Source: a virus
Virus record (IMG/VR): IMGVR_UViG_3300036791_000759
Coordinates: 1-64,000 of that record
Length of the DNA stretch: 64,000 bases
Strand: one strand, 5' to 3'
The position numbers were made by a program, and so were the translations under genes. The first letter of the stretch is position 1; every line of letters starts with the position of its first letter. The notes under the pieces were generated by a model, which worked only from the letters and a program-made list of their open reading frames with translations, was not told where the DNA came from and made no database searches. Shown here in pieces: positions 1 to 64,000 of the stretch.

Positions 1-116
1 TCAAGAAGTACGAAGCGGCGATGCACCATAAGGAATACCCACCCACCCCGTCGGGTCTCTGCGTCAAATACTGCGGGGTGGTGAGCTGTCCCTATCACGG
101 CAAGGGAACGCGGTGA
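1..116 (+). CDS. PD-(D/E)XK exonuclease, 3' fragment
   Basis: This is the last 37 codons of a RecB/Cas4-like nuclease whose full copy lies at 59493-60155. The visible end contains the cysteine pattern CVKYCGVVSCPYHGKG, probably a metal-binding C-terminus as in Cas4/AddB-type nucleases. The window starts inside the gene. It differs from the full copy by a few bases near its end, so it comes from a sister haplotype. Confidence 0.9.
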   Translation, partial: KKYEAAMHHKEYPPTPSGLCVKYCGVVSCPYHGKGTR

Positions 117-349: not shown

Positions 350-350
350 A

Positions 351-1204: not shown

Positions 1205-1439
1205 GCCCGAGATCGACGAGATGGTCAAAGGGCTCGAAGAGATGACCAAGCAGGTAAAGGCCGGCGAGTTTGTCTCTTACATCATCGGCGCCTTTAGAGA
1301 GGACGCCAAGTTTATTAGCGTCGAGCGCGGCCGGGCGATGAGCCGCCTGCAGATCATCGGGATTTTAGAGTGCTGGAAGGCCGATATGCTCGACACGATG
1401 CCATCCGTCAGTGAGATGAAACTGCCAGACCCTGAATGA
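1167..1439 (+). CDS. 90-residue phage protein, unknown function
   Basis: A mostly helical, charged protein (KPEIDEMVKGLEEMTKQVKAG near the N-terminus) with no domain I recognise. AAAGGAAG precedes the ATG and a motif A palindrome lies in the leader. It ends by overlapping the helicase start (ATGATG), so it is probably co-translated with it. The second copy at 61150-61422 is identical. Confidence 0.75.
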   Translation: MKPRQVSIVPLPKPEIDEMVKGLEEMTKQVKAGEFVSYIIGAFREDAKFISVERGRAMSRLQIIGILECWKADMLDTMPSVSEMKLPDPE

Positions 1440-3916
1440 TGTTTCTCACCGCTGACGCACGACACCTCGTTATGCCGTGGCGACCCGATGTCGCCCGGTT
1501 AATCCCCCATGCACGGGAGTTCACCCATGAAGGACAACGCATGTTAGTACTGCCAAACAAACACGACGAAACCAGACTGGTGCGCAACCTCGGGCTCGCG
1601 GTCCCGCCGCCGGTGCTGACCCGTTATGACTGGCTGGGTCAGACCCCGTGGGCGATCCAGCGCACGACGACAGCGATGCTGACCGAGAACCAGCGGGCCT
1701 TTGTGCTGAACGAGTTTGGTTGTGTCGATGGCAGCACGGAGTATCTGTCGCCCGAAGGGTGGCGACATATATCTGACTATCAAGGCGGCTTAGTTGCGGA
1801 GTATCGCCCCGAGACAGGCTCAATCGGGTTTGTCGAGGCTGAGTATGTAAAGCAGCCATGCGATGAGATGATCCGGTTCAAGACGCGCTATGGCATCGAC
1901 CAGCTTCTGTCGCCCGAGCACCGCGTGCTTTATGTGGATCGTGCTGGCGAGACAAAAGTAGCCTCGGCGCAGTCTCTCTATGACCGCTACGACCGGATGC
2001 GTAACAAAGACGTGAGGTTCATTACGACCTTCCGGGTTGACGATGGCCGTGTCATACCCATGACTGACGCGGAGTTGCGGGTGCATGTCGCACTCACCGC
2101 CGATGGTTATACGCCTTACAACGAGCGCGTAGATGTCCGGCTAAAGAAGCCCCGCAAGATTGCCCGCATGGAGCAACTGCTTAACGATGCCAGCATAACT
2201 TTTACCAGTGTCCCAGTACAACCTGTTGGCTTCTTTAAGTTCACTTTTAACTGGCCCCATAAGAAAGGTTTCCAGTTTGGCTACGACATTTGCCAACATC
2301 AACTCGAAGTCATTGCCGACGAAGTAGTTCATTGGGATGGGTCGCAGCGCAAGGCCGGACTGTTTGAGTTCTCGTCGAGCAAATACGACGAGGCTAACTT
2401 TATCCAATTTGCCTACGCCGCGTCTGGTCGATGCGCATCTATCGGCTTGTCCGAACGTTATCGCCGGGGAGGTGAAGAGTGGGAATGGCGTGTGACGGCG
2501 CGTCGTAAATCCCTGATCGGGTTTACTCAGGCAAGTCAGCGGGCAACTCGCGCTATCACCAAGGAGCCGAGCCCCGACGGGTTTAAGTACTGCTTCATGG
2601 TGCCCAGCACGTTCCTGCTGTTGCGGCGCAATGGTTGCATTTTCGTAACCGGGAATACCGGGAAGACCAGATCGGTGATCTGGGCGGCCGACTGGCTGAA
2701 GCGCAGCGCCAATATCGGTCCGGTGCTGATCACCGCGCCGCTCTCGACCTTGACCCCGGTATGGGAGGCCGAGCTATTTAAACTACTGCCACGCGGCCGG
2801 GTCCAGGTGCTGCACGGCGACCGCGCCACCCGGCTCGAACGCCTGAAGCAAGATGCTGACTTTTATATCATCAACCACCACGGTCTAAAGCTGATCCAGA
2901 AGGAGCTGCTCGCGAAGAAGTTCCGGGTGTTTGTCATCGATGAACTCGCGGTTTTCCGCAACCGGCGCACTGGCCTCTGGAAGGCAGCGGCGGCGATCGT
3001 CGCGCAGACCGAGTGGGCCTGGGGCCTGACCGGCTCACCTACCCCCAAGGCGCCGACCGACGCCTGGGCGCAGATCCACATGCTGACCCCGGGCAACACG
3101 ACGCGGACCTGGGTCAGGTTTCGTGACCTGACCATGCGCCAGATCACCCAGTTCAAGTGGGTACGCCGGTCGGGCGCGCAGGAGCTGATCCACCAGCAGA
3201 TGCAGCCGAGCGTGCGGTTTGCACTGGAGGACGTGACCGAGCTGCCGCCCACCACCCACCGGCAGATCCCGGTGCCGCTGGAGCCCGAGGCCAAGCGAGC
3301 CTACGAGATTATGTTTAATAAGATGCGACTGCTCTACGAGAACCATGAGATCACCGCCGTCAACGAGGGTGTGCTGCAATCCAAGCTTCTCCAGGTGGCG
3401 TGTGGGTCGATCTACACCGATCGCGATGGCAAGGTTGAGCTGCCGGCGGCCGGGCGGCTCGACGCGTTAAAGGACATCGTCGAGAGCACCTCGCGCAAGG
3501 TGATCGTCTTTGTGCCGTTCATCCATGCGCTGGAGCGCGTGGCCGACTACCTGCGGGACACCGAGGAGGTAGCTGTGGTGCATGGCTCAACCCCCGTCGG
3601 GCAGCGCAACAAGATTTTCTCGGGGTTTCAGAACGAAGAGAGACCCCGGGTTATCGTCGCGCACCCGGCCTGCATGTCGCATGGCCTGACCCTGACCGCC
3701 GCCAACACCATCGTCTGGTACTGTCCGACAAACAACTTCGAGACCTACGAGCAGGCGAACGCCCGCGTTCGCCGTCCGGGCCAGACCGCAAAAACCTTGA
3801 TCGCCCACCTGGTGGGGACGCCGATTGAGCGGCTGTGCTACGCCAGGCTGCAGGACCGGGGGATCTTCCAGGGTGTGTTGCTCGATCTGTTCCACCAGCA
3901 GGAACTGGAGTTCTGA
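1436..3916 (+). CDS. SNF2-family DEAD/H helicase interrupted by an intein
   Basis: An 826-residue precursor; removing the intein (residues 96-407) leaves a helicase of about 514 residues. Motif I is rebuilt on splicing as NEFG + TGKTR. Motif II is IDELA (the usual DExx) and motif III is GLTGSPTP. The C-terminal RecA-like lobe has AHPACMSHGLTL and motif VI QANARVRRPGQ. This is the compact SNF2/DEXH helicase common in podovirus and siphovirus replication modules, acting on replicating or recombining DNA. It follows the VRR-NUC gene, a frequent pairing. The second copy (61419-63899) is identical. Confidence 0.93.
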   Translation: MMFLTADARHLVMPWRPDVARLIPHAREFTHEGQRMLVLPNKHDETRLVRNLGLAVPPPVLTRYDWLGQTPWAIQRTTTAMLTENQRAFVLNEFGCVDGSTEYLSPEGWRHISDYQGGLVAEYRPETGSIGFVEAEYVKQPCDEMIRFKTRYGIDQLLSPEHRVLYVDRAGETKVASAQSLYDRYDRMRNKDVRFITTFRVDDGRVIPMTDAELRVHVALTADGYTPYNERVDVRLKKPRKIARMEQLLNDASITFTSVPVQPVGFFKFTFNWPHKKGFQFGYDICQHQLEVIADEVVHWDGSQRKAGLFEFSSSKYDEANFIQFAYAASGRCASIGLSERYRRGGEEWEWRVTARRKSLIGFTQASQRATRAITKEPSPDGFKYCFMVPSTFLLLRRNGCIFVTGNTGKTRSVIWAADWLKRSANIGPVLITAPLSTLTPVWEAELFKLLPRGRVQVLHGDRATRLERLKQDADFYIINHHGLKLIQKELLAKKFRVFVIDELAVFRNRRTGLWKAAAAIVAQTEWAWGLTGSPTPKAPTDAWAQIHMLTPGNTTRTWVRFRDLTMRQITQFKWVRRSGAQELIHQQMQPSVRFALEDVTELPPTTHRQIPVPLEPEAKRAYEIMFNKMRLLYENHEITAVNEGVLQSKLLQVACGSIYTDRDGKVELPAAGRLDALKDIVESTSRKVIVFVPFIHALERVADYLRDTEEVAVVHGSTPVGQRNKIFSGFQNEERPRVIVAHPACMSHGLTLTAANTIVWYCPTNNFETYEQANARVRRPGQTAKTLIAHLVGTPIERLCYARLQDRGIFQGVLLDLFHQQELEF
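1721..2656 (+). other. Intein in helicase P-loop, with degenerate LAGLIDADG region
   Basis: A 312-residue intein begins at Cys96 (CVDGSTEYLSPEGW, block A) and ends with FVTGN before extein Thr. Block B is LLSPEHRVLY; block F/G is YCFMVPSTFLLLRRNG...FVTGN. The terminal pair is Gly-Asn rather than His-Asn, a known but less common variant. The middle contains VHVALTADGY and LEVIADEVVHWDGS, which resemble two LAGLIDADG helices, so a homing endonuclease domain is likely present but possibly decayed. The insertion lies exactly between G and TGKT of Walker A, so the helicase is inactive until splicing. Confidence 0.9.
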
Positions 3917-3918
3917 TC

Positions 3919-4221
3919 ATGACACTACAAGTTGAATGGTTTGATGAGAGACGTGAGCCTCAACACCCGCCTGATCCGCGCTACCCCAATGGGATCGATA
4001 TCGACACGACGACCTTCACACAGATCGATATGAAGAGTGGCGCCGTGATCCCGCATGATGCAGATCGCAAAACGTGTTTTACTTTCTTGCGTCCGTACCC
4101 GGCACCGCGCATCGGCAAATTCCTTGTCAAGTGTGATGTGTGCGGTCAGCTAACGATGGTCACGACCGCTGGGCGACCCGACGATCCGCGCTCCGTGCGC
4201 ATACCCTGCAAGGCCAACTAA
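3919..4221 (+). CDS. 100-residue protein with C-terminal CxxC
   Basis: The start lies just after the helicase stop. The C-terminal part has CDVCGQ and a later single Cys before the stop, a possible incomplete zinc ribbon. The N-terminal half is polar and Pro/Asp-rich (PPDPRYPNGIDIDT). No family recognised. The start of a second copy runs off the window at 63902. Confidence 0.7.
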   Translation: MTLQVEWFDERREPQHPPDPRYPNGIDIDTTTFTQIDMKSGAVIPHDADRKTCFTFLRPYPAPRIGKFLVKCDVCGQLTMVTTAGRPDDPRSVRIPCKAN

Positions 4222-50028: not shown

Positions 50029-50065
50029 TAATAAAAACGACCGCACATTAGTACTACCGTAGCAA
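50029..50065 (+). promoter_or_regulatory. Shared leader module 2 with motif A
   Basis: AATAAAAACGACCGCACAT then GTACTACCGTAGCAA (50051-50065), 20 bases upstream of the MoxR-like ATG. It is nearly the same as the element before 53420. Confidence 0.7.
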
Positions 50066-50085
50066 CAGGAAAGGAAGTATTTAAC

Positions 50086-51267
50086 ATGAACTTGGAACAA
50101 GCCAAGCGGGTGCTGCTGCGCACCCATGTGTCGGCGTTAGCTCTGGGTGAGCGTGCGTCGGGCATGGTGCTGCAGTCATCACCGGGCGTCGGCAAAACCG
50201 AGGGTGGGTTTCAGTATGTTGAGGATTTGTGCCTCACCCTGAATGAGCCCGTTGGGATGACGCAGTTTATGCTGGCGACGATCCAGTCAGCCGATGTTCG
50301 CGGGTTCGGCATTCCGGTCAAAGCCGCCGATGGCGGGTCCATACCGGACTTTGTGTTCTCGCGGCCGCCATGGGCGCCGGTGCGTGCCAATACGTGGGTG
50401 TGTGAACCCACGGGCAACCCGGAGAAGCCGGTGCGCTGGTACGCCGAGGGCGAGTGGACCGGCGAGATGCCCAGGGTGGGTGTGCTGTTCCTCGATGAGT
50501 TTGGCCAGGCGGAGGAAGATGTTAAAAAACCTGCGGCTGAGCTGATCTACAAGGGGAACGTCGGCGCGTGGAAGCTGCCGGTCGGCTGGCGGGTGATCGC
50601 GGCGACGAACCGGGTGTCGGATCGTAGCGGCGTCATGCGCGAGCTGATGTTTATCGTCAACCGGCGGTGCTTGCTCAATATCCAGCCGCAGCTGCAACCG
50701 TGGCTCGACTGGGCCGCGCGAAAGAAGATTCACTATATGAGCGTGTCGTTCGCGCGGCAGCATCCTGGGGTCGTCTTTCATGAGGATGTTCCCGAGGGTA
50801 CCGATCCGTTCTGCACACCGCGATCGTTGGTTTTGATGGATCGCGATCTGCAGGCCATACGTGGGCCCGAGGAGATCGCCAACGACAAGATGCCCATCGA
50901 CGAGGTCGCGCGCGAGGTCTGCGCCGGCTGGGTCGGGAACGCGACGATGGGGCAGTATTTTACCCATCTGAAGTATTCCGACTTGTTGCCGGACCCTGAC
51001 GATATCGCCAGTGATCCGGGTCGGGCAAAACTGCCCGACACGATGGACGCGCAGATGGTGACGGCGTTTATGCTCTCACATCATGTGAGAGAAGAAACTT
51101 CCGCTCAGTTCCAGCGCTACATCAACCGCATGCACATCGAGATGCAGCATCTTGCCGTGCGCACGATCAAGGGCGATCCCCTAAAGGCCAAGTTCTTCAC
51201 GCTGACCCAGGAGCACCGCGACTGGCTGATGAAGAACAAGGATACGTTCATCGCATCGCGTTCGTAA
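50086..51267 (+). CDS. MoxR/CobS-like AAA+ ATPase
   Basis: A 393-residue single AAA+ module: Walker A SSPGVGKTE (residues 31-39), Walker B VLFLDEFGQ (about 134-142), sensor-1 region IAATNRVSDRS and a helical lid. MoxR-family ATPases work with VWA-domain partners to remodel proteins or metal complexes (for example RavA-ViaA, CobS-CobT). A zincin/VWA protein is encoded 2.2 kb downstream. Motif B and a long hairpin lie just after this gene. Target unknown. Confidence 0.85.
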   Translation: MNLEQAKRVLLRTHVSALALGERASGMVLQSSPGVGKTEGGFQYVEDLCLTLNEPVGMTQFMLATIQSADVRGFGIPVKAADGGSIPDFVFSRPPWAPVRANTWVCEPTGNPEKPVRWYAEGEWTGEMPRVGVLFLDEFGQAEEDVKKPAAELIYKGNVGAWKLPVGWRVIAATNRVSDRSGVMRELMFIVNRRCLLNIQPQLQPWLDWAARKKIHYMSVSFARQHPGVVFHEDVPEGTDPFCTPRSLVLMDRDLQAIRGPEEIANDKMPIDEVAREVCAGWVGNATMGQYFTHLKYSDLLPDPDDIASDPGRAKLPDTMDAQMVTAFMLSHHVREETSAQFQRYINRMHIEMQHLAVRTIKGDPLKAKFFTLTQEHRDWLMKNKDTFIASRS

Positions 51268-51269
51268 TC

Positions 51270-51282
51270 TATAGCTGCTATA
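51270..51282. promoter_or_regulatory. Motif B palindrome
   Basis: TATAG-CTG-CTATA starts two bases after the MoxR-like stop, in the leader of the DUF3150-like gene. Confidence 0.6.
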
Positions 51283-51315
51283 GTATGAGCATCGCCGGGT
51301 GCGTTCGCGCCCGGC

Positions 51316-51363
51316 GGTGATCAGCCTCAGACGTAGCCGAGGTTACGCCTGAGGGTGATCACC
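51316..51363 (+). other. Long leader hairpin
   Basis: GGTGATCAGCCTCAG (51316-51330) pairs with CTGAGGGTGATCACC (51349-51363) with one mismatch, and the loop itself folds as CGTAGC-CGAG-GTTACG, giving a rod of about 20 pairs. An extra GC hairpin (CGCCGGG ... CCCGGCG) precedes it. It looks like a structured RNA or processing site in the 159-base leader of the next gene. Confidence 0.6.
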
Positions 51364-51376
51364 CCCGATCACCTTA

Positions 51377-51391
51377 ATGCTACCGTAGCAA
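51377..51391. promoter_or_regulatory. Motif A site in leader of DUF3150-like gene
   Basis: ATGCTACCGTAGCAA lies 35 bases upstream of the ATG at 51427. Confidence 0.6.
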
Positions 51392-51426
51392 CGCTGCGCC
51401 CGGTAGGCGCAGTAGAGAGGGAGAAC

Positions 51427-52323
51427 ATGAACGACATAGCAGTACATACGCAGGATGTCGGCGACGCGGTGCGCAACGCCGGGCTTCTCGCCAGTGTCCA
51501 GATTTCGGTCTGGGAGGGCATGAAGCTCGACAAGAAATCCTTGGAGGAACTTAAGAAACTCCACGGCGCATCGGGTGATATCGGCCGGGTCAACATTAAC
51601 CTGTTGACCGGGCACGATGGCTTGCTGAGGGACACGCACAGCGCGTTCTTTAGTGTCCGCACCCGCCACTACGAGCTGACGCTGCCGTGGGTGAGCGATC
51701 CCCACGCACCGCGCCAGCGCGGTCCCCGGCTGTTGTCTCATCTGCTGTTCGAGCAATATGTCAAGGAGCTGAGCGTGCTCAAAAAGAGCGCGATCGACCT
51801 GTTGGAGGGTAGTTTCCTTCCGGCGTATCCCGGGCTCGTGCAGGGCGCGCAGGGCAATTTGGGGACCATCGCCCAAGGGTTCCACTACCCGACGGTGGAT
51901 GAGATTAGGAAAGCCTTCCGCGTGCATTTCGACTTCGAGCCGATCCCCGAGGGCGCCGGCTTTCGCGGGTTGGACGGGCACACGCTCGACCAGCTGGGTA
52001 AGCTGCTCGCCAAGAAGCAGGAGCGCCAGGTTGCGGAGGCAACGCGTGCCATGTGGATCGAGACCCGCGCGCGGATCGAGGCATTGATCGCCGCCACCAA
52101 GAAGCCCAACGCGGCGACGGTGGGCAACGTGCGCGAGCTGTTGACGCTCTTGCCGGGGTGGAACATCACCGGCAACCCGGTGGTGAGCGAGGTGGCGCAG
52201 GATATCGACGAGCTGCTCATGGGCATCGAGGCCGAGGATCTGCGCAAGGATGAAAAGCTGCGCAGCGATACCGCCGCGAGCGCGCAGAAGATCGTCGATA
52301 AGATGGCCCGATGGGGGCTGTGA
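51427..52323 (+). CDS. DUF3150-like partner of MoxR ATPase
   Basis: A 298-residue protein. It starts with two helices and VQISVWEGMKLDKKSLEELKKLHG, then RTRHYELTLPWVS, YPTVDEIRKAFRVHFDFEPIPEG and a long C-terminal helical region. The layout matches the DUF3150 proteins that phages encode next to CobS/MoxR and VWA genes. AGAGGGAG precedes the ATG. It probably forms a complex or serves as an adaptor with the ATPase; family assignment is by pattern. Confidence 0.65.
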   Translation: MNDIAVHTQDVGDAVRNAGLLASVQISVWEGMKLDKKSLEELKKLHGASGDIGRVNINLLTGHDGLLRDTHSAFFSVRTRHYELTLPWVSDPHAPRQRGPRLLSHLLFEQYVKELSVLKKSAIDLLEGSFLPAYPGLVQGAQGNLGTIAQGFHYPTVDEIRKAFRVHFDFEPIPEGAGFRGLDGHTLDQLGKLLAKKQERQVAEATRAMWIETRARIEALIAATKKPNAATVGNVRELLTLLPGWNITGNPVVSEVAQDIDELLMGIEAEDLRKDEKLRSDTAASAQKIVDKMARWGL

Positions 52324-52342
52324 CAACACCAGGGCAGGGGCT

Positions 52343-52657
52343 GTGACGCAGGGAACCCCGAAGGCGAATTATGTCTTTATCACCCACGCCAAGCCCTACG
52401 ACGATGGCCAGCTGCGTGTGGTTATCGAGGTCGGGCGACTTGCCCGGGTCAATTATCGCTGGGGTCCATTTTATCAGTCGGAGCTGATGCTGTGGATTGA
52501 AGCCGAGCCCATCGTCGAGCGCGCCGAGCGGGTGTGCGAGAGGCTAAACCGCTCGATACTCGCCGTCGCGGCCGCCGAGCTAAAGCGCGCCGGGTTGAAG
52601 CGTCTCTTTAAACATTGTTGGGAGGAGGATGAGCATGACTATGAGAATGGTGATTAG
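52343..52657 (+). CDS. 104-residue protein
   Basis: The GTG start follows GGGCAGGGG. It has KANYVFITHAKPYDDGQLRVVIEVGRLARVNYRWGPFYQSELMLWI, a beta-rich fold, then a helix with ERVCERLNRSILAVAA. The end is acidic. Function unknown; within the MoxR/VWA cluster. Confidence 0.6.
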   Translation: MTQGTPKANYVFITHAKPYDDGQLRVVIEVGRLARVNYRWGPFYQSELMLWIEAEPIVERAERVCERLNRSILAVAAAELKRAGLKRLFKHCWEEDEHDYENGD

Positions 52658-52724
52658 CGCCGTAGTGCTGATTGCGAGCCAAGCGACGGCTCATGCCTGC
52701 ACGTTGGGATGGGGTGCGCTATGA
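52629..52724 (+). CDS. 31-residue exported peptide
   Basis: It has a strong GGAGGAGG site and an ATG. The peptide MSMTMRMVISAVVLIASQATAHAC... looks like a signal sequence ending in AHA before a short Cys-containing mature part. It overlaps both neighbours. Too short for firm assignment. Confidence 0.4.
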   Translation: MSMTMRMVISAVVLIASQATAHACTLGWGAL

Positions 52725-52951
52725 GCGCGCGCACGCTGACCCTCTATCGCGACGACAGCACCGTACAGGTGGTCTACGAGCGCGTGAAGGCGGTCTTTTG
52801 GACAGCCAACAACACTGTGCTCGTGGTGTCTCAGTTCACCGACGAGGCAAGCGGCGCACATCGCTACATCCACTGGCCGCGCGAACGGTTCTGCTGGTTC
52901 AAAGACGAGCCTGGCAAGGCTGATGCGCTGGCCGATGGAGGGGCGGCATAA
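52721..52951 (+). CDS. 76-residue beta-rich protein
   Basis: MSARTLTLYRDDSTVQVVYERVKAVFWTANNTVLVVSQF... predicts five short strands with HRYIHWPRERFCWFKDE near the end. It is coupled to the previous ORF by ATGA. Function unknown. Confidence 0.6.
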   Translation: MSARTLTLYRDDSTVQVVYERVKAVFWTANNTVLVVSQFTDEASGAHRYIHWPRERFCWFKDEPGKADALADGGAA

Positions 52952-52989
52952 CAACCGTCCTGATTCATCGCCATTGGAAGGAAACGGAC

Positions 52990-53268
52990 ATGACCGCAAT
53001 TGATGATCTGAAAAACAAAGTGACGCGCCTCAGGGATGAGCTTCAAGACGCCGAAACAAAATTGATTAATGCAGTCCGCGAAACCGCACCGTTTAAAGTC
53101 GGCGATGTATGGGTCGACAATCGACGTCGCCAAGGCAAAATAACGAGAATTTTGGTTTCCTATAACTTCAAGCCAGAAGCGCATCTGACACTATACAAGA
53201 AAGACGGCAGCCTCGGCGTTCGCGAAATACCCGCTTTCTCGTGGGATGGCTGGAAGCCACTGCCATGA
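52990..53268 (+). CDS. 92-residue protein with N-terminal coiled coil
   Basis: The helix MTAIDDLKNKVTRLRDELQDAETKLINAV is followed by a small SH3-like beta domain (FKVGDVWVDNRRRQGKITRILVSY ... WDGWKPLP). GGAAGGAAA lies upstream. Function unknown. Confidence 0.65.
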   Translation: MTAIDDLKNKVTRLRDELQDAETKLINAVRETAPFKVGDVWVDNRRRQGKITRILVSYNFKPEAHLTLYKKDGSLGVREIPAFSWDGWKPLP

Positions 53269-53419
53269 CCGCCTCTATCACCGGGCGACAGACTGAGCAA
53301 GCCTATCGGCGTTAGTTCTGCTGAACTGCCCATCCATAGTGGTGGGCAGCTAGCAGCACTAAAGACTGCGAATAAAAACCGCCACACATAAGTACTACCG
53401 TAGCAACTGGAGAAACAAA
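53269..53419. promoter_or_regulatory. Leader of the VWA gene with shared module 3
   Basis: It contains a nested hairpin (TGCTG ... CTGCCCA ... TGGGCAG ... CAGCA at about 53317-53358). The shared module follows: AATAAAAACCGCCACACAT then GTACTACCGTAGCAA (53392-53406). CTGGAG and the ATG at 53420 come next. The module matches the one before 50086 at most positions. Confidence 0.65.
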
Positions 53420-54775
53420 ATGGAGAGGTTACCAAAGTTGGCGAAGCTAACGCCAGCTCAGGAACAGGCAATGGTCGAGGGCCGCATGGCCTTTATGGAT
53501 GATTGCCCGTTCTTTGCCCATTATTACTGGGACCAGCTGAAGGAATATCCGACGTATGACTTTGATACGGCGGCGACCGACAGCCGGCGGGTGTTCTTTA
53601 ACCCCGAGTATATGGCCAAGCTCACGCCGCTCGAACGGGCGTTTGTGCTGGCGCATGAAACCGATCATGCGATCAGCAATCACCCGACGCGGATGAAGTA
53701 TTACCGTGAGACGACGATCCTGCGCGGATTGCCGTTTGATGGTCAGTTCTTCAATGTCTGCGCCGACTATTCGATCAACGCCCGTCTGATCACAGCCAAG
53801 GTCGGGTCGTGCAATCCCGAGTGGCTCTACGCGCCCGATGTGGACGGCACAGAGCTGCCCGAGGATGTCTACGTCAAGAAGTGGCAGAAGCCGCCACCGC
53901 AGCAGCCGCAGCAGCCGACACAGCCCGGTCAGGGACAAGGCGGCGGCGGTCAGTCGGGACAGGGACAAGGCGGTAGTTCTCAACCGCCAGGCCAGACCTA
54001 TGGCCAGGTTAAGAAGGGCGCCAACCCCGACAAAATCGCCAAGGCCAATGGCGGCAGCTTTGATCAGGTGCTCGAACCGTTCACCGATCCGGTGACCGGC
54101 GCGGAGGATATCCCGGGAGAGACCGAGTTCAAGGAAGCCATCGGCAGGGCCGCTGCGGCGGCCAAGGCGGTGGGAAAGATGCCCGGGGTGTTCCAGACGA
54201 TGGTGGACGAGATACTCGAACCACAGGTTACCTGGACCGAGCATATCCGCATGCTGCTGACCGGCACCATCGGCCGGCGCAACGAGACCTGGAACACGCC
54301 CAACCGCAGATATCTGCCGCTGGGGGCGCCGTTCCCGGGTCGGCCGCCGATGATCTTTCTGCCGAGTAAGCGCGGGTATGGCGCGGACTTGGTAGCAGTG
54401 GCGATCGATTGTTCGGGATCGGTCAGCAACGACGAGCTGCGGGTGTTTCTCTCCGAGGTCGGTGGGGTGATCGCCGACTGCAAGCCGCGCCGGGTCATGC
54501 TGATCTGGTGCGATGCGCGGATCCAGCGGATCGACGAAGCCAGATCATTGGACGATCTCGCGGATATCCGGGTCAAGGGTGCGCCGGGTCGTGGGGGAAC
54601 GAGCTTTCATCCACCGTTCGCGTATCTCGACGAAGAGGGGATCGTGCCCGACACGATGATCTACCTCACCGACATGATGGGTAGCTTTCCCGAGGAGCCG
54701 AGGTATCCAACAGTGTGGTGCGCGACCAGCGACATCAAGGCGCCGTTTGGTGAAACCGTAAGGGTAAAGGTGTGA
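53420..54775 (+). CDS. DUF2201-like zincin + VWA protein (MoxR partner)
   Basis: A 451-residue protein. The N-terminal metallopeptidase-like domain has FVLAHETDHAISNH (HETDH at residues 79-83) and NVCADYSINARL, as in DUF2201_N. A Gln/Gly/Pro-rich linker (about 155-195) leads to a helical part. The VWA-like domain has the metal-site motif DCSGS (from residue 330), a Thr in GRGGTSFHPP and LTDMMG, so the MIDAS set is complete. Such proteins pair with MoxR AAA+ ATPases, here encoded at 50086. A metal-dependent remodelling or maturation complex is inferred. Confidence 0.82.
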   Translation: MERLPKLAKLTPAQEQAMVEGRMAFMDDCPFFAHYYWDQLKEYPTYDFDTAATDSRRVFFNPEYMAKLTPLERAFVLAHETDHAISNHPTRMKYYRETTILRGLPFDGQFFNVCADYSINARLITAKVGSCNPEWLYAPDVDGTELPEDVYVKKWQKPPPQQPQQPTQPGQGQGGGGQSGQGQGGSSQPPGQTYGQVKKGANPDKIAKANGGSFDQVLEPFTDPVTGAEDIPGETEFKEAIGRAAAAAKAVGKMPGVFQTMVDEILEPQVTWTEHIRMLLTGTIGRRNETWNTPNRRYLPLGAPFPGRPPMIFLPSKRGYGADLVAVAIDCSGSVSNDELRVFLSEVGGVIADCKPRRVMLIWCDARIQRIDEARSLDDLADIRVKGAPGRGGTSFHPPFAYLDEEGIVPDTMIYLTDMMGSFPEEPRYPTVWCATSDIKAPFGETVRVKV

Positions 54776-54776
54776 G

Positions 54777-55583
54777 ATGCCGAATTTCGAGCTGAGCGAC
54801 GACCATCGGTCGTCGCTGCGAGGTGTGTGCCGCCGTCTGTGCGAGGTGCGTACCCTGACAATGGAGCAGGGATTTCCACTATCACAGGAGGATGTCCAGC
54901 AGGGGATCTTACCAGCGGAGATGCGCGATCTGTTTAACAGGCTGAAGGCGATGGGCGCCGAGTCGGTGCGAAACACCAGGAGCCCGTCGTTCTTTGTCGG
55001 TGGCGAGGGGATCGATCGCGAGGTGGCGATCAATATCACCGGTGTGCAAAACCTGTGGTATGCCTACGAAATCCAGGATGGCGCCTATGTGGCCGGGGAA
55101 CAGATCAAGCAGCGAAACGAGAAGTTTGACAAAAAGCTGTTCTTCAACAACGCGGTGTTAGCTCCCGAGACCTATAAGAAACTGGTCAGGTGGATTAACT
55201 TAGGTGTTCGCGAGCATCGCCAGGCGGCACTGTTGAACGAAACCCTGGTTAGATTTCTGCATCATTCAGGCATGACACTGGGGCACATCATCGCGCGCTG
55301 GCCGGGGTTGACCCTGGTGTTCGACGAGATGGACCGGGGGGGCTATATTAGCAGCCGCTCAAAGAACAGCTGGCGCGACCGGGTACGCCAGCTCCCGGCC
55401 ACTAAGAACCGCTGGGGCTGGCCGGCTTACGGCGATGCTGCAGTGTGGTACGAGAAGAACAAAAAGATACTGGCGGTGTGCGATGAGATGCTGGTCGGCG
55501 CGGCGCAGCTCGACCGCCCCCACACGCCGGGCATGGCGGCGCGGATCGTCGGTTGGCGCCGCAAGGAGGGAGAAAAGATATGA
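54777..55583 (+). CDS. 268-residue protein of the MoxR/VWA cluster
   Basis: It starts one base after the VWA stop, so it is in the same transcript. It is a helical protein with LRGVCRRLCEVRTLTMEQGFPLSQEDVQQGILPAEMRDLFNRL, EVAINITGVQNLWYAYEIQDGAYV and LLNETLVRFLHHSGMTLGHIIARWPGLTLVFDEM. No domain is recognised. Position suggests a dedicated partner or substrate of the ATPase/VWA pair. Confidence 0.7.
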   Translation: MPNFELSDDHRSSLRGVCRRLCEVRTLTMEQGFPLSQEDVQQGILPAEMRDLFNRLKAMGAESVRNTRSPSFFVGGEGIDREVAINITGVQNLWYAYEIQDGAYVAGEQIKQRNEKFDKKLFFNNAVLAPETYKKLVRWINLGVREHRQAALLNETLVRFLHHSGMTLGHIIARWPGLTLVFDEMDRGGYISSRSKNSWRDRVRQLPATKNRWGWPAYGDAAVWYEKNKKILAVCDEMLVGAAQLDRPHTPGMAARIVGWRRKEGEKI

Positions 55584-55786
55584 CGGCAAATGAAGAGGAC
55601 TATCTCAAACGCGAGCTGCTGCGGCTCGACGTGCTGCTGCGCAAGAAGCAAGCCTGGTGGGAGCATCCGCGCAACGCCGCACTGATCCTCGGCGTCGTCA
55701 TCGCCGCTGCTGGCCTGCTCGGCTACAAGATCGGCTCGACGCCGCAGCAGATCATTGTCCACCTCGATCAGCCACTAAAGCCATGA
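55580..55786 (+). CDS. 68-residue single-pass membrane protein
   Basis: An N-terminal charged coil (YLKRELLRLDVLLRKKQAWW) is followed by a transmembrane helix (NAALILGVVIAAAGLLGYKIG, about residues 33-52) and a short periplasmic tail. GGAGGGAGAAAAG lies before the ATG, which overlaps the previous stop. It could anchor the ATPase/VWA complex or be a holin-like protein. Confidence 0.62.
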   Translation: MTANEEDYLKRELLRLDVLLRKKQAWWEHPRNAALILGVVIAAAGLLGYKIGSTPQQIIVHLDQPLKP

Positions 55787-55915: not shown

Positions 55916-56383
55916 GTGGCTGTGTCTGGTGATCTACTCATAGACCATGACGGGTACTACGCGCCGGCTTGGCGTGGGTCAGCAGGCGCCAGGCCGCCGC
56001 TTTACCGGCTTTGGACTAATATCAGGAACCGCTGCAATAACATGCGTACCCACGATTACCGTTATTACGGTGGTCGTGGGATTAAAGTCTGTGCCCGATG
56101 GGACAACTTTGATGCGTTCGCGCACGACGTAGGTGACTATCCCGGTAAAGGGTGGACGCTCGATCGCATTAACAACGACGGCAACTATGAACTGGGCAAT
56201 GTGCGCTGGGCAACGCGGCGTACTCAGGCGCGCAATAGAAATTATTGTGTATTAACTAAATATGACGCAGACAAAATACGTAGATTGTATGATGAAGGTA
56301 TAATTCAAACTGAACTTGCAGTAATGTTTAATGTGCATCAAGCACATATTAGTGCTATTATTAGAAGGATTATTTGGAAATGA
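55916..56383 (+). CDS. HNH-type putative homing endonuclease upstream of PolA
   Basis: A 155-residue protein (GTG start). RLWTNIRNRCNNMRTHDYRYYGGRGIKVCARWDNFDAFAHDVG, then LDRINNDGNYELGNVRWATRRTQARN, is the block of small phage endonucleases usually called HNH-like homing nucleases. A C-terminal HTH-like part (DADKIRRLYDEGIIQTELAVMFNVHQAHISAIIRR) probably gives DNA specificity. It overlaps the polymerase start by ATGA. The AT-rich 3' half differs from its neighbours, a sign of transfer. Confidence 0.75.
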   Translation: MAVSGDLLIDHDGYYAPAWRGSAGARPPLYRLWTNIRNRCNNMRTHDYRYYGGRGIKVCARWDNFDAFAHDVGDYPGKGWTLDRINNDGNYELGNVRWATRRTQARNRNYCVLTKYDADKIRRLYDEGIIQTELAVMFNVHQAHISAIIRRIIWK

Positions 56384-58954: not shown

Positions 58955-59496
58955 TGGCGTGCTACGCGGATGATCTGACAACGCAAATTCGCAAACTAGC
59001 CGAAACCTTCGCATACCCTCTCCTCAGCGGGCGTGATGGACAATGGACGGCCGAGGAACTTGAGCCTGTTTTGAGCGAGTTCGTGACCGCCGTCCGCGCC
59101 GCACCCGGCCCGCCGAGTGAGGCAGATGTCGAGCGCGTCAGAAGTGCCATCATGGGGGTGGGCGGTTGGTATCCGGCACAGGAAACCAATGTTGCAGTGG
59201 CAACCCGTATAGCCCGCGCCGCCATCGCTGCTATGGGGCAAGTAACAGACCCGACCCCGCCAGCGAGTGATCTGAGTGATGCCGCAAAGGCTTGGTACAC
59301 ATACATTGATCTTGAGCCGACCGTTCACGGGAAAATCCAAGGTCTTGCCGCCGTCCGCGCCGAAGCCAAGGCCGAGCAGCACGCAGCGGATGTGAAGATG
59401 CTGCGAGACAATATGCACCTGTTCCTTCCCATTCATGAGGGCCTGGATGTGGCGCGGCGCATCGCCGACTTCCTCGAACAGAGAGGGCCAAAATGA
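58954..59496 (+). CDS. 180-residue protein
   Basis: The ATG at 58954 overlaps the previous stop (TGATG). It contains TQIRKLAETFAYPLL, AEELEPVLSEFVTAV and ATRIARAAIAAMG helices and a second helical part (AKAWYTYIDLEPTVHGKIQGLAAVRAEAKAEQHAADVKML). Function unknown; overlaps the exonuclease gene start. Confidence 0.65.
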   Translation: MACYADDLTTQIRKLAETFAYPLLSGRDGQWTAEELEPVLSEFVTAVRAAPGPPSEADVERVRSAIMGVGGWYPAQETNVAVATRIARAAIAAMGQVTDPTPPASDLSDAAKAWYTYIDLEPTVHGKIQGLAAVRAEAKAEQHAADVKMLRDNMHLFLPIHEGLDVARRIADFLEQRGPK

Positions 59497-60155
59497 GTTT
59501 CGCCTGGAGCTACTCGCGCCTCAAAAATTTCGAGACCTGCCCGAAGCGGCACTACCACTACGACATCGCCAAGGATATCACCGAGGAGGAGTCGGGCGCG
59601 CTGCTCGAAGGGCACGACACCCACAAAGCGTTTGAGCTGCGGGTCTCACGCAAGCAGAAGCTGCCACCAAACCTGGCGCGGCACGAGAGCTGGATCCAGA
59701 TGCTGGTGAAGCCACCGGGTTTTGCCTATGCCGAGCAGAAGCTGGCACTCAACAGCTTTTTTGAGCCGGTCGGGTTCTTTGCCGACAATGTGTGGTTCCG
59801 CTGCGTGCTCGACTTCACCAAGGTGATGGACAGCTTTGCCGTGGTCGTCGACTACAAGACCGGCAAGGTGGGCGACGACGACACCCAGCTGTCGCTGCAG
59901 GCGGCGACGGTCTTTCACACCATCCCGGCGATCAACCGGGTGCGATCGGGGATGGCCTTTGTCAACTACGATAAAGTTGTCAGCAAGGTTTATCATCGTA
60001 GCGATATCCCGTTGATCTGGAACAAGATGTTGCCGCGCGTCAAGAAGTACGAAGCGGCGATGCACCATAAGGAATACCCACCCACCCCGTCGGGTCTCTG
60101 CGTCAAATACTGCGGGGTGGTGAGCTGTCCCTATCATGGGAAAGGAACGCGGTGA
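59493..60155 (+). CDS. RecB/Cas4-like PD-(D/E)XK exonuclease
   Basis: A 220-residue nuclease: SYSRLKNFETCPKRHYHYD at the N-terminus (the conserved Cys and Tyr/Arg of Cas4/RecB nucleases), HDTHKAFE, CVLDFTK and VVDYKTGK (Asp and Glu/Lys motif III), QLSLQAATVF (Gln motif), and a C-terminal CVKYCGVVSC cluster. The pattern fits an Fe-S or zinc-containing ssDNA exonuclease of the phage recombination and replication module. The last part is repeated at the start of the window. Confidence 0.87.
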   Translation: MSFAWSYSRLKNFETCPKRHYHYDIAKDITEEESGALLEGHDTHKAFELRVSRKQKLPPNLARHESWIQMLVKPPGFAYAEQKLALNSFFEPVGFFADNVWFRCVLDFTKVMDSFAVVVDYKTGKVGDDDTQLSLQAATVFHTIPAINRVRSGMAFVNYDKVVSKVYHRSDIPLIWNKMLPRVKKYEAAMHHKEYPPTPSGLCVKYCGVVSCPYHGKGTR

Positions 60156-60313
60156 TGATAATCGAGGTGATTCTGATCGTTGATCTATTTTTGTGGTTCC
60201 TCACCTTGTTGCCGGTGCCGCCGGCGGCGCAGTTTAGCTGGGCGTCGAGCTGGTTTGCCTGGATCGCCGCTGTGCTGCTGGCACTCTTCCTCTTTATCCC
60301 TGGCCTTAGATGA
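60155..60313 (+). CDS. Two-helix membrane protein, copy 2
   Basis: Homologue of the protein at 351-509, same length (52 residues). The N-terminal third is diverged (MIIEVILIVDLFLWF) and the rest nearly identical. It directly follows the exonuclease because the zinc-binding gene of copy 1 is absent here. Confidence 0.65.
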   Translation: MIIEVILIVDLFLWFLTLLPVPPAAQFSWASSWFAWIAAVLLALFLFIPGLR

Positions 60314-60477
60314 AGGCGCCTGACCGCATGGTCTCAAAGACCGAGGCTGCGTTCGAGCACCCGGCCAAGGGGCCACACCACTGTTCGCAGTGTACTCACT
60401 TCAAGGTCGGGCGCTGCGAAGTGGTGCGCGGGTTTATCTCGCCGCTTGACTGGTGCAAGTACTGGCAACGGAAATGA
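60310..60477 (+). CDS. Small Cys-rich protein, copy 2
   Basis: 55 residues, homologous to 506-673 with several substitutions (SPLDWCKYW in place of QPGDWCKYW) but all cysteines kept. Confidence 0.65.
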   Translation: MKAPDRMVSKTEAAFEHPAKGPHHCSQCTHFKVGRCEVVRGFISPLDWCKYWQRK

Positions 60478-60656
60478 TGCACGATGCACTACCGATAGAA
60501 GCTACGCTTATCCGCGCAGCAAAGGCGCGGATTCTCTCGCTTGAAAGTGAGATTGAGAGTTACCGTGTCGATGACCCTGAGCGACGCCGATTACAAACTC
60601 GTTTGACTGAAGAACGAAATAATCTCACCTGGCAACTTCGGAGACTCCAGGTATGA
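60474..60656 (+). CDS. 60-residue coiled-coil protein unique to copy 2
   Basis: MMHDALPIEATLIRAAKARILSLESEIESYRVDDPERRRLQTRL... is a single long amphipathic helix. The ATG overlaps the previous stop and its end overlaps the VRR-NUC start. It has no counterpart in copy 1, where the two neighbours are fused by ATGA overlap. Function unknown. Confidence 0.6.
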   Translation: MMHDALPIEATLIRAAKARILSLESEIESYRVDDPERRRLQTRLTEERNNLTWQLRRLQV

Positions 60657-60994
60657 AAACCGTCGTTTCCGAGGCGAGAGTAAAAGTTAAAATCAAAAAA
60701 GTCCTCGATAATTATAGGAGCTATATATATTATTACATGCCCGTACCAGGTGGGTACGGGCGATCGACACTGGATTACTTGGGGTTCTGCTGCGGCTTGG
60801 GGTTTGCCATTGAGGCAAAGAGCAGTGTTGGCAACCCGACAGAGCGCCAGCTGGCAATCATGCAGCAGATCACGGCGGTACACGTCCCGGTGTTTATCGT
60901 GCGCGATGACGCATCACTGGCGCAGTTGGATCAATGGCTCAACACGGTCACGACCAAATGGCGGGGGCGACATGAACCAAATAATGCTGCGTGA
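60653..60994 (+). CDS. VRR-NUC domain nuclease, copy 2
   Basis: 113 residues with the same catalytic pattern as 670-1011 (GGYGRSTLDYLG, FAIEAKSS) and a few substitutions. It contains motif B TATAG-GAG-CTATA at 60713-60725. Confidence 0.85.
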   Translation: MKTVVSEARVKVKIKKVLDNYRSYIYYYMPVPGGYGRSTLDYLGFCCGLGFAIEAKSSVGNPTERQLAIMQQITAVHVPVFIVRDDASLAQLDQWLNTVTTKWRGRHEPNNAA

Positions 60995-61187
60995 GCAGCT
61001 GCAGATTGCGATTGACTGGCCGTGGTGTCTGCATCCGGTCTACCGGATCCAGTGGACACGGGGGTTTCACGGTGGGCTGGAGCATCGCGCCGGCACCCGC
61101 AACGACCGCAGGTTCAAGCGGGTTGCTACCGTAGCAAAGGAAGCGAGCAATGAAGCCGAGACAGGTGAGCATCGTTCCGCTGCCTAA
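60972..61187 (+). CDS. 71-residue protein, copy 2
   Basis: Differs from 989-1204 only in the first 15 residues. Sequence identity between the two window ends becomes complete inside this gene, from 61015 on. Confidence 0.5.
   Translation: MNQIMLREQLQIAIDWPWCLHPVYRIQWTRGFHGGLEHRAGTRNDRRFKRVATVAKEASNEAETGEHRSAA
61123..61137. promoter_or_regulatory. Motif A palindrome, duplicate of 1140-1154
   Basis: Perfect TTGCTACCGTAGCAA in the identical repeated section. Confidence 0.7.
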
Positions 61188-61422
61188 GCCCGAGATCGAC
61201 GAGATGGTCAAAGGGCTCGAAGAGATGACCAAGCAGGTAAAGGCCGGCGAGTTTGTCTCTTACATCATCGGCGCCTTTAGAGAGGACGCCAAGTTTATTA
61301 GCGTCGAGCGCGGCCGGGCGATGAGCCGCCTGCAGATCATCGGGATTTTAGAGTGCTGGAAGGCCGATATGCTCGACACGATGCCATCCGTCAGTGAGAT
61401 GAAACTGCCAGACCCTGAATGA
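61150..61422 (+). CDS. 90-residue protein, copy 2
   Basis: Identical to 1167-1439; same leader and coupling to the helicase gene. Confidence 0.75.
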   Translation: MKPRQVSIVPLPKPEIDEMVKGLEEMTKQVKAGEFVSYIIGAFREDAKFISVERGRAMSRLQIIGILECWKADMLDTMPSVSEMKLPDPE

Positions 61423-63899
61423 TGTTTCTCACCGCTGACGCACGACACCTCGTTATGCCGTGGCGACCCGATGTCGCCCGGTTAATCCCCCATGCACGGG
61501 AGTTCACCCATGAAGGACAACGCATGTTAGTACTGCCAAACAAACACGACGAAACCAGACTGGTGCGCAACCTCGGGCTCGCGGTCCCGCCGCCGGTGCT
61601 GACCCGTTATGACTGGCTGGGTCAGACCCCGTGGGCGATCCAGCGCACGACGACAGCGATGCTGACCGAGAACCAGCGGGCCTTTGTGCTGAACGAGTTT
61701 GGTTGTGTCGATGGCAGCACGGAGTATCTGTCGCCCGAAGGGTGGCGACATATATCTGACTATCAAGGCGGCTTAGTTGCGGAGTATCGCCCCGAGACAG
61801 GCTCAATCGGGTTTGTCGAGGCTGAGTATGTAAAGCAGCCATGCGATGAGATGATCCGGTTCAAGACGCGCTATGGCATCGACCAGCTTCTGTCGCCCGA
61901 GCACCGCGTGCTTTATGTGGATCGTGCTGGCGAGACAAAAGTAGCCTCGGCGCAGTCTCTCTATGACCGCTACGACCGGATGCGTAACAAAGACGTGAGG
62001 TTCATTACGACCTTCCGGGTTGACGATGGCCGTGTCATACCCATGACTGACGCGGAGTTGCGGGTGCATGTCGCACTCACCGCCGATGGTTATACGCCTT
62101 ACAACGAGCGCGTAGATGTCCGGCTAAAGAAGCCCCGCAAGATTGCCCGCATGGAGCAACTGCTTAACGATGCCAGCATAACTTTTACCAGTGTCCCAGT
62201 ACAACCTGTTGGCTTCTTTAAGTTCACTTTTAACTGGCCCCATAAGAAAGGTTTCCAGTTTGGCTACGACATTTGCCAACATCAACTCGAAGTCATTGCC
62301 GACGAAGTAGTTCATTGGGATGGGTCGCAGCGCAAGGCCGGACTGTTTGAGTTCTCGTCGAGCAAATACGACGAGGCTAACTTTATCCAATTTGCCTACG
62401 CCGCGTCTGGTCGATGCGCATCTATCGGCTTGTCCGAACGTTATCGCCGGGGAGGTGAAGAGTGGGAATGGCGTGTGACGGCGCGTCGTAAATCCCTGAT
62501 CGGGTTTACTCAGGCAAGTCAGCGGGCAACTCGCGCTATCACCAAGGAGCCGAGCCCCGACGGGTTTAAGTACTGCTTCATGGTGCCCAGCACGTTCCTG
62601 CTGTTGCGGCGCAATGGTTGCATTTTCGTAACCGGGAATACCGGGAAGACCAGATCGGTGATCTGGGCGGCCGACTGGCTGAAGCGCAGCGCCAATATCG
62701 GTCCGGTGCTGATCACCGCGCCGCTCTCGACCTTGACCCCGGTATGGGAGGCCGAGCTATTTAAACTACTGCCACGCGGCCGGGTCCAGGTGCTGCACGG
62801 CGACCGCGCCACCCGGCTCGAACGCCTGAAGCAAGATGCTGACTTTTATATCATCAACCACCACGGTCTAAAGCTGATCCAGAAGGAGCTGCTCGCGAAG
62901 AAGTTCCGGGTGTTTGTCATCGATGAACTCGCGGTTTTCCGCAACCGGCGCACTGGCCTCTGGAAGGCAGCGGCGGCGATCGTCGCGCAGACCGAGTGGG
63001 CCTGGGGCCTGACCGGCTCACCTACCCCCAAGGCGCCGACCGACGCCTGGGCGCAGATCCACATGCTGACCCCGGGCAACACGACGCGGACCTGGGTCAG
63101 GTTTCGTGACCTGACCATGCGCCAGATCACCCAGTTCAAGTGGGTACGCCGGTCGGGCGCGCAGGAGCTGATCCACCAGCAGATGCAGCCGAGCGTGCGG
63201 TTTGCACTGGAGGACGTGACCGAGCTGCCGCCCACCACCCACCGGCAGATCCCGGTGCCGCTGGAGCCCGAGGCCAAGCGAGCCTACGAGATTATGTTTA
63301 ATAAGATGCGACTGCTCTACGAGAACCATGAGATCACCGCCGTCAACGAGGGTGTGCTGCAATCCAAGCTTCTCCAGGTGGCGTGTGGGTCGATCTACAC
63401 CGATCGCGATGGCAAGGTTGAGCTGCCGGCGGCCGGGCGGCTCGACGCGTTAAAGGACATCGTCGAGAGCACCTCGCGCAAGGTGATCGTCTTTGTGCCG
63501 TTCATCCATGCGCTGGAGCGCGTGGCCGACTACCTGCGGGACACCGAGGAGGTAGCTGTGGTGCATGGCTCAACCCCCGTCGGGCAGCGCAACAAGATTT
63601 TCTCGGGGTTTCAGAACGAAGAGAGACCCCGGGTTATCGTCGCGCACCCGGCCTGCATGTCGCATGGCCTGACCCTGACCGCCGCCAACACCATCGTCTG
63701 GTACTGTCCGACAAACAACTTCGAGACCTACGAGCAGGCGAACGCCCGCGTTCGCCGTCCGGGCCAGACCGCAAAAACCTTGATCGCCCACCTGGTGGGG
63801 ACGCCGATTGAGCGGCTGTGCTACGCCAGGCTGCAGGACCGGGGGATCTTCCAGGGTGTGTTGCTCGATCTGTTCCACCAGCAGGAACTGGAGTTCTGA
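61419..63899 (+). CDS. SNF2-family helicase with intein, copy 2
   Basis: Identical to 1436-3916, including the intein and all motifs. It belongs to the redundant end of the window rather than to a second functional gene. Confidence 0.93.
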   Translation: MMFLTADARHLVMPWRPDVARLIPHAREFTHEGQRMLVLPNKHDETRLVRNLGLAVPPPVLTRYDWLGQTPWAIQRTTTAMLTENQRAFVLNEFGCVDGSTEYLSPEGWRHISDYQGGLVAEYRPETGSIGFVEAEYVKQPCDEMIRFKTRYGIDQLLSPEHRVLYVDRAGETKVASAQSLYDRYDRMRNKDVRFITTFRVDDGRVIPMTDAELRVHVALTADGYTPYNERVDVRLKKPRKIARMEQLLNDASITFTSVPVQPVGFFKFTFNWPHKKGFQFGYDICQHQLEVIADEVVHWDGSQRKAGLFEFSSSKYDEANFIQFAYAASGRCASIGLSERYRRGGEEWEWRVTARRKSLIGFTQASQRATRAITKEPSPDGFKYCFMVPSTFLLLRRNGCIFVTGNTGKTRSVIWAADWLKRSANIGPVLITAPLSTLTPVWEAELFKLLPRGRVQVLHGDRATRLERLKQDADFYIINHHGLKLIQKELLAKKFRVFVIDELAVFRNRRTGLWKAAAAIVAQTEWAWGLTGSPTPKAPTDAWAQIHMLTPGNTTRTWVRFRDLTMRQITQFKWVRRSGAQELIHQQMQPSVRFALEDVTELPPTTHRQIPVPLEPEAKRAYEIMFNKMRLLYENHEITAVNEGVLQSKLLQVACGSIYTDRDGKVELPAAGRLDALKDIVESTSRKVIVFVPFIHALERVADYLRDTEEVAVVHGSTPVGQRNKIFSGFQNEERPRVIVAHPACMSHGLTLTAANTIVWYCPTNNFETYEQANARVRRPGQTAKTLIAHLVGTPIERLCYARLQDRGIFQGVLLDLFHQQELEF
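61704..62639 (+). other. Intein in helicase, copy 2
   Basis: Identical to the intein at 1721-2656 (Cys start, Gly-Asn end). Confidence 0.9.
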
Positions 63900-63901
63900 T
63901 C

Positions 63902-64000
63902 ATGACACTACAAGTTGAATGGTTTGATGAGAGACGTGAGCCTCAACACCCGCCTGATCCGCGCTACCCCAATGGGATCGATATCGACACGACGACCTTC
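63902..64000 (+). CDS. 100-residue CxxC protein, 5' fragment, copy 2
   Basis: The first 33 codons of the gene seen complete at 3919-4221. The window ends inside it. Confidence 0.7.
   Translation, partial: MTLQVEWFDERREPQHPPDPRYPNGIDIDTTTF

Follow-up and report, generated by a model that had tools for sequence, protein, structure and literature searches.

Described relatives of the genes studied here include gp24 and gp25 of Escherichia phage N4, two of the 14 core genes present in all 25 N4-like phages compared, which are transcribed as middle genes and whose function is unknown (PMC4193335). In 2021 Iyer et al. reported a MoxR ATPase paired with a metallopeptidase-vWA protein in jumbo phages, naming proteins of Agrobacterium phage Atu_ph07 (we confirmed the accessions as ASV44729.1 and ASV44728.2), and proposed virion processing, citing MoxR-vWA in the tail growth of Acidianus two-tailed virus (PMC7824862). 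Related pairs of archaeal tailed viruses and cyanophages have been read as CobST, and viral cobST clusters are reported to be widespread among tailed viruses (PMC8651126). In multicellular bacteria, predicted conflict systems are built around MoxR-vWA couples (PMC7159879). For NorQD, the metal-ion-dependent adhesion site (MIDAS) of the von Willebrand factor A (VWA) domain is required to activate the client and not to bind the ring (PMC9976466), and a finger of the VWA protein enters the ring pore (PMC13036017). Here we analysed a cluster of genes in a 64 kb stretch (hereafter the window, 64,000 nucleotides) of the 66,413-base IMG/VR virus record IMGVR_UViG_3300036791_000759, in which a DUF3150-like gene stands between such an ATPase gene and a gene for a protein joining a zincin motif to a VWA domain. 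A preliminary description of the cluster, made from its sequence alone, had proposed an undescribed MoxR-VWA-type system, and all the genes that it named are present as open frames in the open reading frame (ORF) list (please see Table 1). We find it very probable that the cluster encodes a machine of the MoxR-VWA type.

Proteins of the cluster

The ATPase matches phrog_1297, labelled 'ATPase', over 26-353/356 with an E-value of 2.5e-52. The Walker A lysine (K37), the Walker B residues (D137/E138), the sensor (N175) and two arginines (R193 and R246) are all present, so that the AAA+ ATPase is complete, as had been suggested. The best PDB match of its profile is midasin, and no Pfam family was found at E up to 0.1. 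The catalytic set (K, DE, N, R, R) is intact in all 35 distinct viral relatives. In the Burkholderiales branch most ATPases, 46 of the 51 from plasmids and genomes, have an aspartate in place of the Walker B glutamate.

The zincin-VWA protein matches PF13203 (DUF2201_N; 3.8e-34, 119 bits against a curated cut-off of 23.2) and PF09967 (DUF2201; 6.9e-20, 71.9 bits against 26.4), as well as phrog_1314 over 6-391/394 (1.7e-77). It has no match to the CobT families PF06213 or PF11775 at E up to 0.1. A zincin and a full MIDAS do stand together in this one protein: the HETDH motif corresponds to residues 79-83 and the MIDAS pattern DxSxS...T...D to residues 330, 332, 334, 394 and 418. We took a census of both motifs in 93 VWA sequences, 88 of them distinct (37 viral, and 51 from plasmids or genomes). 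The MIDAS is complete in 37/37 viral and 48/51 plasmid or genome proteins, the three incomplete ones being two with S in place of T and one truncated sequence. The HExxH motif is intact in 36/37 and 45/51 and lost in 1/37 and 6/51, respectively, and since its replacements are diverse (HQ, LK..Q, HD, AT), the losses look like several separate events. The VWA protein of Atu_ph07 has HQILH instead of HExxH. In a Paraburkholderia branch (loci L017, L025, L026 and L027) LKVMQ stands in its place and the remaining triad is intact. Because the MIDAS is nearly invariant while the zincin motif decays, remodelling rather than cutting would seem to be the indispensable step, with gripping and remodelling of a client as the nearly invariant function and cutting as an optional one.

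PHROGs (phrog_1314) and many phage entries of RefSeq label this family 'HNH endonuclease'. For the protein of the window, however, the Pfam matches are limited to DUF2201_N, DUF2201 and a weak M48, with no HNH domain, and we rejected the endonuclease identity. The label is probably a propagated misannotation, which hides the zincin-VWA family in the databases.

The DUF3150-like protein of the window has no Pfam match, PF11348 included. In its close homologs of loci L003 and L004, PF11348 is matched below the cut-off of 24.9 bits (E-values of 0.0014 and 0.0061; 18.5 and 16.3 bits), and such sub-cut-off matches occur in 7 of 31 DUF3150-like relatives (E up to 0.01). An AlphaFold model was calculated from an input of 31 sequences (predicted local distance difference test, pLDDT, 85.5; predicted template-modelling score, pTM, 0.56) and used instead of an earlier, poor model from three sequences (pLDDT 50.5). 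The model matches viral predicted structures in BFVD at 3.6e-14 to 5.5e-13, and the match at 5.5e-13 carries the name DUF3150. There was no match among PDB folds at E 0.001 and nothing useful among PDB sequences with the DUF3150 profile; the VIA-align rows (best Z 9.8) show generic helix bundles, from which we draw no conclusion. The likeness to DUF3150 noted in the preliminary description was thus found again as a remote one: we keep the label 'DUF3150-like' because fold and place agree while the scores lie under the PF11348 cut-off, by which the protein is not a member of that family. Its open frame begins at GTG 51355, and ATG 51427 is the more likely start because the homologs align from there and a leader motif lies just 5' of it. 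As a further candidate for DUF3150 we considered gp569 of Phage G, a coiled-coil protein, and rejected it as it does not match the DUF3150 profile. Inspection by eye revealed a hairpin-forming inverted repeat at 51315-51370, between the ATPase and DUF3150-like genes, followed by the leader palindrome, which suggests separate transcription control of these two genes.

The 268-residue partner, P268, has direct homologs in loci L003, L004, L071, L094 and L095 according to an iterated profile search, which together with the window amounts to six DUF3150-bearing viral loci; no P268-type gene was found in L006, L086, L088, L089 and L092. Its identity to the proteins of L003 and L004 is only 25-27%, compared to 50-65% for the large conserved genes. 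In the two-gene loci the protein at the equivalent place belongs to a family of its own, which is linked to P268 by profile comparison (hhalign probability 95.1, E-value 3.3e-8). Since both homologs and the profile-linked family recur at the equivalent position, P268 is, judged by these relatives, a fast-evolving conserved component of the module in the lineage of the window and not a random neighbour.

The three conserved proteins differ in how often they are met among phages. In tblastn searches of 50,697 phage records, homologs of the VWA protein were found in 497, those of the ATPase in 348 and those of the DUF3150-like protein in only 3, and the P268 homolog of L003 gave no match to phages. 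As single queries against viral contigs, the ATPase found one contig, at 98%, and the VWA protein and P268 found nothing.

Gene order in phages, plasmids and bacterial genomes

In all 24 viral loci anchored on the VWA gene, the ATPase gene lies 5' of it and on the same strand. Some of these loci are near-duplicates: L069 and L070 are repeats of L003 and L004, and the pairs L072/L073 and L078/L079 give identical matches. The DUF3150 gene has the ATPase gene before it and the VWA gene after it in 9 of 10 DUF3150-bearing viral loci, with the duplicates L069, L070 and L093 omitted; the exception is L086, where it follows the VWA gene. The order counts take in loci with a gap of about 6 kb between the DUF3150 and VWA genes (L088), with the ATPase gene 5 kb upstream (L047), with broken frames (L054 and L067) and with a cut VWA gene (L039). 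This neighbourhood survey speaks for a non-random unit, as had been expected. The MoxR-VWA reading of the cluster is likewise upheld: the window has the AAA+ motifs and the adjoining MIDAS-VWA gene by which MoxR-VWA genes are recognised.

The same genes are shared with plasmids and bacterial genomes. The DUF3150 protein of L003 as query found 42 plasmids, mostly of Burkholderiales, and in all five DUF3150 plasmids that were inspected in detail the ATPase, DUF3150 and zincin-VWA genes stand in a row. A DUF3150-anchored scan of bacterial genomes gave 44 loci, all of Burkholderiales, with the ATPase before and the VWA gene after DUF3150 in 44/44. Pairs of ATPase and VWA genes without DUF3150 occur on Synechocystis pSYSA, one Rhodococcus plasmid and one Sphaerotilus plasmid.

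More distant sister loci came from a PF11348 search of 398 genomes from one phylum, which gave 9 places in 8 genomes; 7 of the 9 were read with their flanks. A CobT-like gene is present in 7/7 and an ATPase gene in 6/7 (not in L108), and the order in L110 differs. L105 and L109 adjoin RecT and YqaJ, L105 also a Toprim/primase gene; for L107 and L111, typing of the neighbours gave HipA and no family. In 5 of 6 CobT-like proteins checked, HExxH is found about 60-70 residues from the start, before the VWA domain, and PF06213 (CobT) is matched by proteins of these loci. Profiles of the sister loci are linked to the components of the window with E-values of 5.1e-12 for the ATPase, 3.2e-7 for DUF3150 and 2e-6 for VWA, the last link being confined to the VWA domain.

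The viral copies have recurrent neighbours. In L003 and L004 the order is ATPase, DUF3150, a small gene, zincin-VWA, P268 and polymerase, and the polymerase is placed in equivalent order in L003, L004 and L005. Rhizobium phage RHph_TM3_14A has ATPase, small genes, zincin-VWA, a 257-residue protein and DNA polymerase, followed by a RecB-like exonuclease, VRR-NUC and an SNF2 helicase, which matches the backbone of the window. From 158 candidate neighbour ORFs we kept 101, in 20 viral loci, after near-duplicate loci, antisense ORFs and some others were dropped by hand; the counts are 15 for DNA polymerase, 10 for the exonuclease phrog_69 and 6 for the DNA helicase phrog_62. The 25 most frequent of the 89 viral neighbour families all belong to DNA metabolism or are unknown.

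Proposed role and alternatives

In the arrangement that we propose from these comparisons, the AAA+ protein would form a motor ring, and the VWA protein would dock on the ring and grip clients through its MIDAS metal site, so that a physical complex and ATP-dependent remodelling are predicted. The N-terminal zincin would be an extra head, probably also able to cut in most members. The third subunit, DUF3150, would be dedicated to this machine and would probably act as a helical adaptor or scaffold among motor, VWA protein and client. Client gripping is put at the core of the function because of the analogy with the MIDAS of NorQD and the invariance of the MIDAS here. The clients would most likely be the DNA replication or recombination proteins of the element itself, or host proteins competing with them, and the machine may load, strip or clear proteins at phage replication forks. 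This placement follows from the polymerase, exonuclease and helicase neighbours, from the sister recombination loci and from the plasmids, which have no virion to assemble. An ATP-driven remodeller serving the replication and recombination proteins of the element is therefore the reading that we prefer, and we put it forward tentatively.

Several points weigh against it. DUF3150 and P268 lack a known activity as an anchor. The remaining 64 of the 89 neighbour families may include structural genes, and Phosso and XaC1 have no annotated replisome gene within 5 kb. Several plasmid loci adjoin conjugation or PRTRC genes and not replication genes. Finally, given the aspartate at Walker B in 46/51 plasmid and genome ATPases, ATP hydrolysis in the Burkholderiales branch may be weak.

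A role in virion morphogenesis, in which the pair would be a chaperone and processing protease for structural proteins, has been proposed in print for Atu_ph07 with the Acidianus virus as precedent (PMC7824862), and the gp24/gp25 homologs of roseophage RPP1 have a second structural module nearby (PMC4193335). We regard it as rather improbable, as the triad also occurs on plasmids that carry conjugation genes and in 44/44 Burkholderiales loci, with no virion evident in the annotations, and as the cluster of the window is surrounded by polymerase, nuclease and helicase genes. Moreover, N4 gp24 and gp25 are middle transcripts and are not named in the entries seen of the N4 column of the virion table (PMC4193335), and the very Atu_ph07 protein behind the processing proposal has HQILH in place of HExxH. 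Takeover of the host or counter-defence would have the complex unfold and cleave a nucleoid, polymerase or defence protein of the host and thereby aid the establishment of the incoming DNA. It would explain why phages and plasmids, which share the establishment problem, both carry the genes; the zincin is intact in nearly all viral proteins (36/37), and DUF262 genes lie near the Synechocystis pSYSA and Sphaerotilus copies. However, PADLOC gave 0 matches for the eight ORFs of the cluster at E up to 0.1, core-gene status and fixed order beside the polymerase are unlike patchy counter-defence genes, and several plasmid lineages combine a decayed zincin with a retained MIDAS. We consider this role unlikely, though worth keeping in mind.

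The absence of PADLOC matches bears as well on a defence module, inter-phage or host-level, carried by the phage. Inter-phage defence had been among the roles first suggested for the cluster, and the part of MoxR-vWA couples in predicted conflict systems (PMC7159879) would fit it, but we found no positive support: the position and order are fixed beside replication genes, gp24 and gp25 are core genes of all the N4-like phages compared (PMC4193335), a conservation unlike that of an accessory defence island, and we saw no exchange of an effector-like gene between relatives. Such a module is very improbable. Slightly less probable still is a cobaltochelatase, in which the viral CobS-CobT-like pair would hijack the host CobN and raise the cobalamin supply, as the literature suggests for viral cobST clusters (PMC8651126). 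PF06213 is indeed matched in the sister DUF3150 loci; the VWA protein of the window, in contrast, is a DUF2201 protein without CobT match and its ATPase has no Pfam family. The CobT-like sisters with typed neighbours sit in RecT/YqaJ loci and not in cobalamin loci, and the profile link to them spans the VWA domain only. Our findings thus weaken two guesses in print, virion processing and cobalamin synthesis.

Beyond the remodeller that we prefer, it is possible, if doubtful, that motor, DUF3150 subunit and zincin-MIDAS subunit make up a new class of three-part AAA+ machine, common to phages, conjugative plasmids and RecT/YqaJ loci, that services the replication and recombination apparatus of mobile elements. 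If true, it would be the mobile-element counterpart of midasin or NorQD, with MIDAS gripping as the essential part and proteolysis as an optional add-on.

Surrounding features and comparison with described systems

Coordinates of the features are given in Table 1. The C-terminal half of the ORF at 52250..52657 is kept at the equivalent place in L003 and L004 (blastp), and the ORF at 55553..55786 matched no family above chance level in the profile libraries, Pfam, PHROGs and PADLOC included.

Table 1 Features of the cluster and its surroundings (window coordinates; a dot denotes no strand)
Feature	Position	Strand	Evidence
Leader palindrome 5' of ATPase gene (genome-wide motif)	50053..50066	.	
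MoxR/midasin-type AAA+ ATPase, N4 gp24 family, phrog_1297, 393 aa	50086..51267	+	phrog_1297 2.5e-52
Leader palindrome 5' of DUF3150-like gene	51379..51392	.	
DUF3150-like protein, 298 aa from preferred ATG, C-terminal helical bundle	51427..52323	+	Homologs L003/L004/L006
Small ORF with uncertain start (135 aa as called)	52250..52657	+	blastp 7e-07, 2.5e-06
Small ORF, 80 aa, no family (Pfam, PHROGs)	52709..52951	+	
Small ORF, 92 aa, no family (Pfam, PHROGs)	52990..53268	+	
Leader palindrome 5' of zincin-VWA gene	53394..53407	.	
Zincin + VWA protein, N4 gp25 family, phrog_1314, DUF2201_N + DUF2201, 451 aa	53420..54775	+	
P268, 268-aa partner, fast-evolving family 3' of zincin-VWA gene	54777..55583	+	Homologs + hhalign
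Putative 77-aa ORF, one hydrophobic stretch, overlapping P268 end	55553..55786	+	Open frame
Family A DNA polymerase, conserved neighbour 3' of P268	56374..58260	+	PF00476 1.2e-16; phrog_17 1.1e-69
PD-(D/E)XK (RecB-like) exonuclease, conserved neighbour	59493..60155	+	PF12705 3.2e-10; phrog_69 2.3e-14

The leader palindrome TTGCTACCGTAGCAA has 26 matches in the window at up to 2 mismatches, compared to 0.41 expected, and palindromes like it give 24 strand matches compared to 0.10 expected. Its 18 sites are spread across the whole window (e.g. 1140, 8138, 20835, 33425, 48498 and 61123), 5' of the ATPase, DUF3150-like and VWA genes and at 15 other places, several times just 5' of start codons. 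It is absent from the relatives L003 and L004. The preliminary description had taken shared leaders as a tie between the genes of the cluster; the motif is real and precedes three of them, but it is not a tie specific to the cluster because its sites span the window and L003 and L004 lack it. It probably serves for regulation across the whole phage genome, as a candidate for an operator or promoter element specific to the phage of the window.

A gene for a 155-residue HNH/HTH-type endonuclease that is homing-endonuclease-like lies at 55916-56383, after the cluster and ahead of the DNA polymerase. The SNF2-type helicase (PF00176/PF00271, 826 residues, 61419-63899) has an insert of about 300 residues at its P-loop, which is absent from the 515-residue homolog in L004; the edges of the insert (Cys after NEFG, GN before TGKT) resemble those of an intein. 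Positions 670-4017 duplicate 60653-64000 at 99.4%, preceded by weaker matches (1-4017 of the window against 60040-64000). As this repeat of the window ends suggests that the record extends beyond one genome length, the true genome seems to measure about 60 kb and to be either circular or circularly permuted.

The cluster had been called undescribed. This does not apply to the ATPase/VWA pair, since the N4 core genes (PMC4193335) and the jumbo-phage pair of 2021 (PMC7824862) are in print. It does look right for the three-part form with DUF3150, within the open-access literature searched, where no paper naming DUF3150 and none testing the function of gp24/gp25 was found; nor was there a description of DUF3150 between the pair, of the CobT-like sister at RecT/YqaJ loci, or of the P268 family after the VWA gene. 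N4 gp24 and gp25 rank with the best-conserved genes of a large phage family. For this pair, a concrete model that can be tested is offered by the DUF3150 subunit, by the versions on plasmids and at RecT loci and by the contrast of a nearly invariant MIDAS with a dispensable zincin.

Compared to the described systems, N4 gp24/gp25 (phrog_1297/phrog_1314) are the equivalent two families with the ATPase first. There is no DUF3150 gene between them in N4 and the polymerase is about 10 kb away, whereas in the window the pair is split by the DUF3150-like gene and followed by P268 and the polymerase. The Atu_ph07 pair consists of adjacent homologs of the window proteins (26% identity for the ATPase, 22% for the zincin-VWA protein), but has HQILH and no DUF3150 gene adjoining. 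The plasmid operon of Burkholderiales and Rhodovastum has the same three genes in equivalent order and differs in the Walker B aspartate of 46/51 ATPases, in the decayed zincin of some members and in the conjugation or PRTRC genes that adjoin it in several. The AAA-DUF3150 (PF11348)-CobT-like loci beside RecT/YqaJ follow the three-part plan of the window with separate sequence families, the ATPase having a NorQ/CbbQ-type C-terminus and the VWA protein being of the CobT type. NorQ-NorD, RavA-ViaA and midasin, as in the window, combine an AAA+ motor with a MIDAS-VWA partner; in the parts of the literature available neither DUF3150 nor a zincin head is described for them, and they act on respiratory enzymes or on the pre-60S ribosome as clients.

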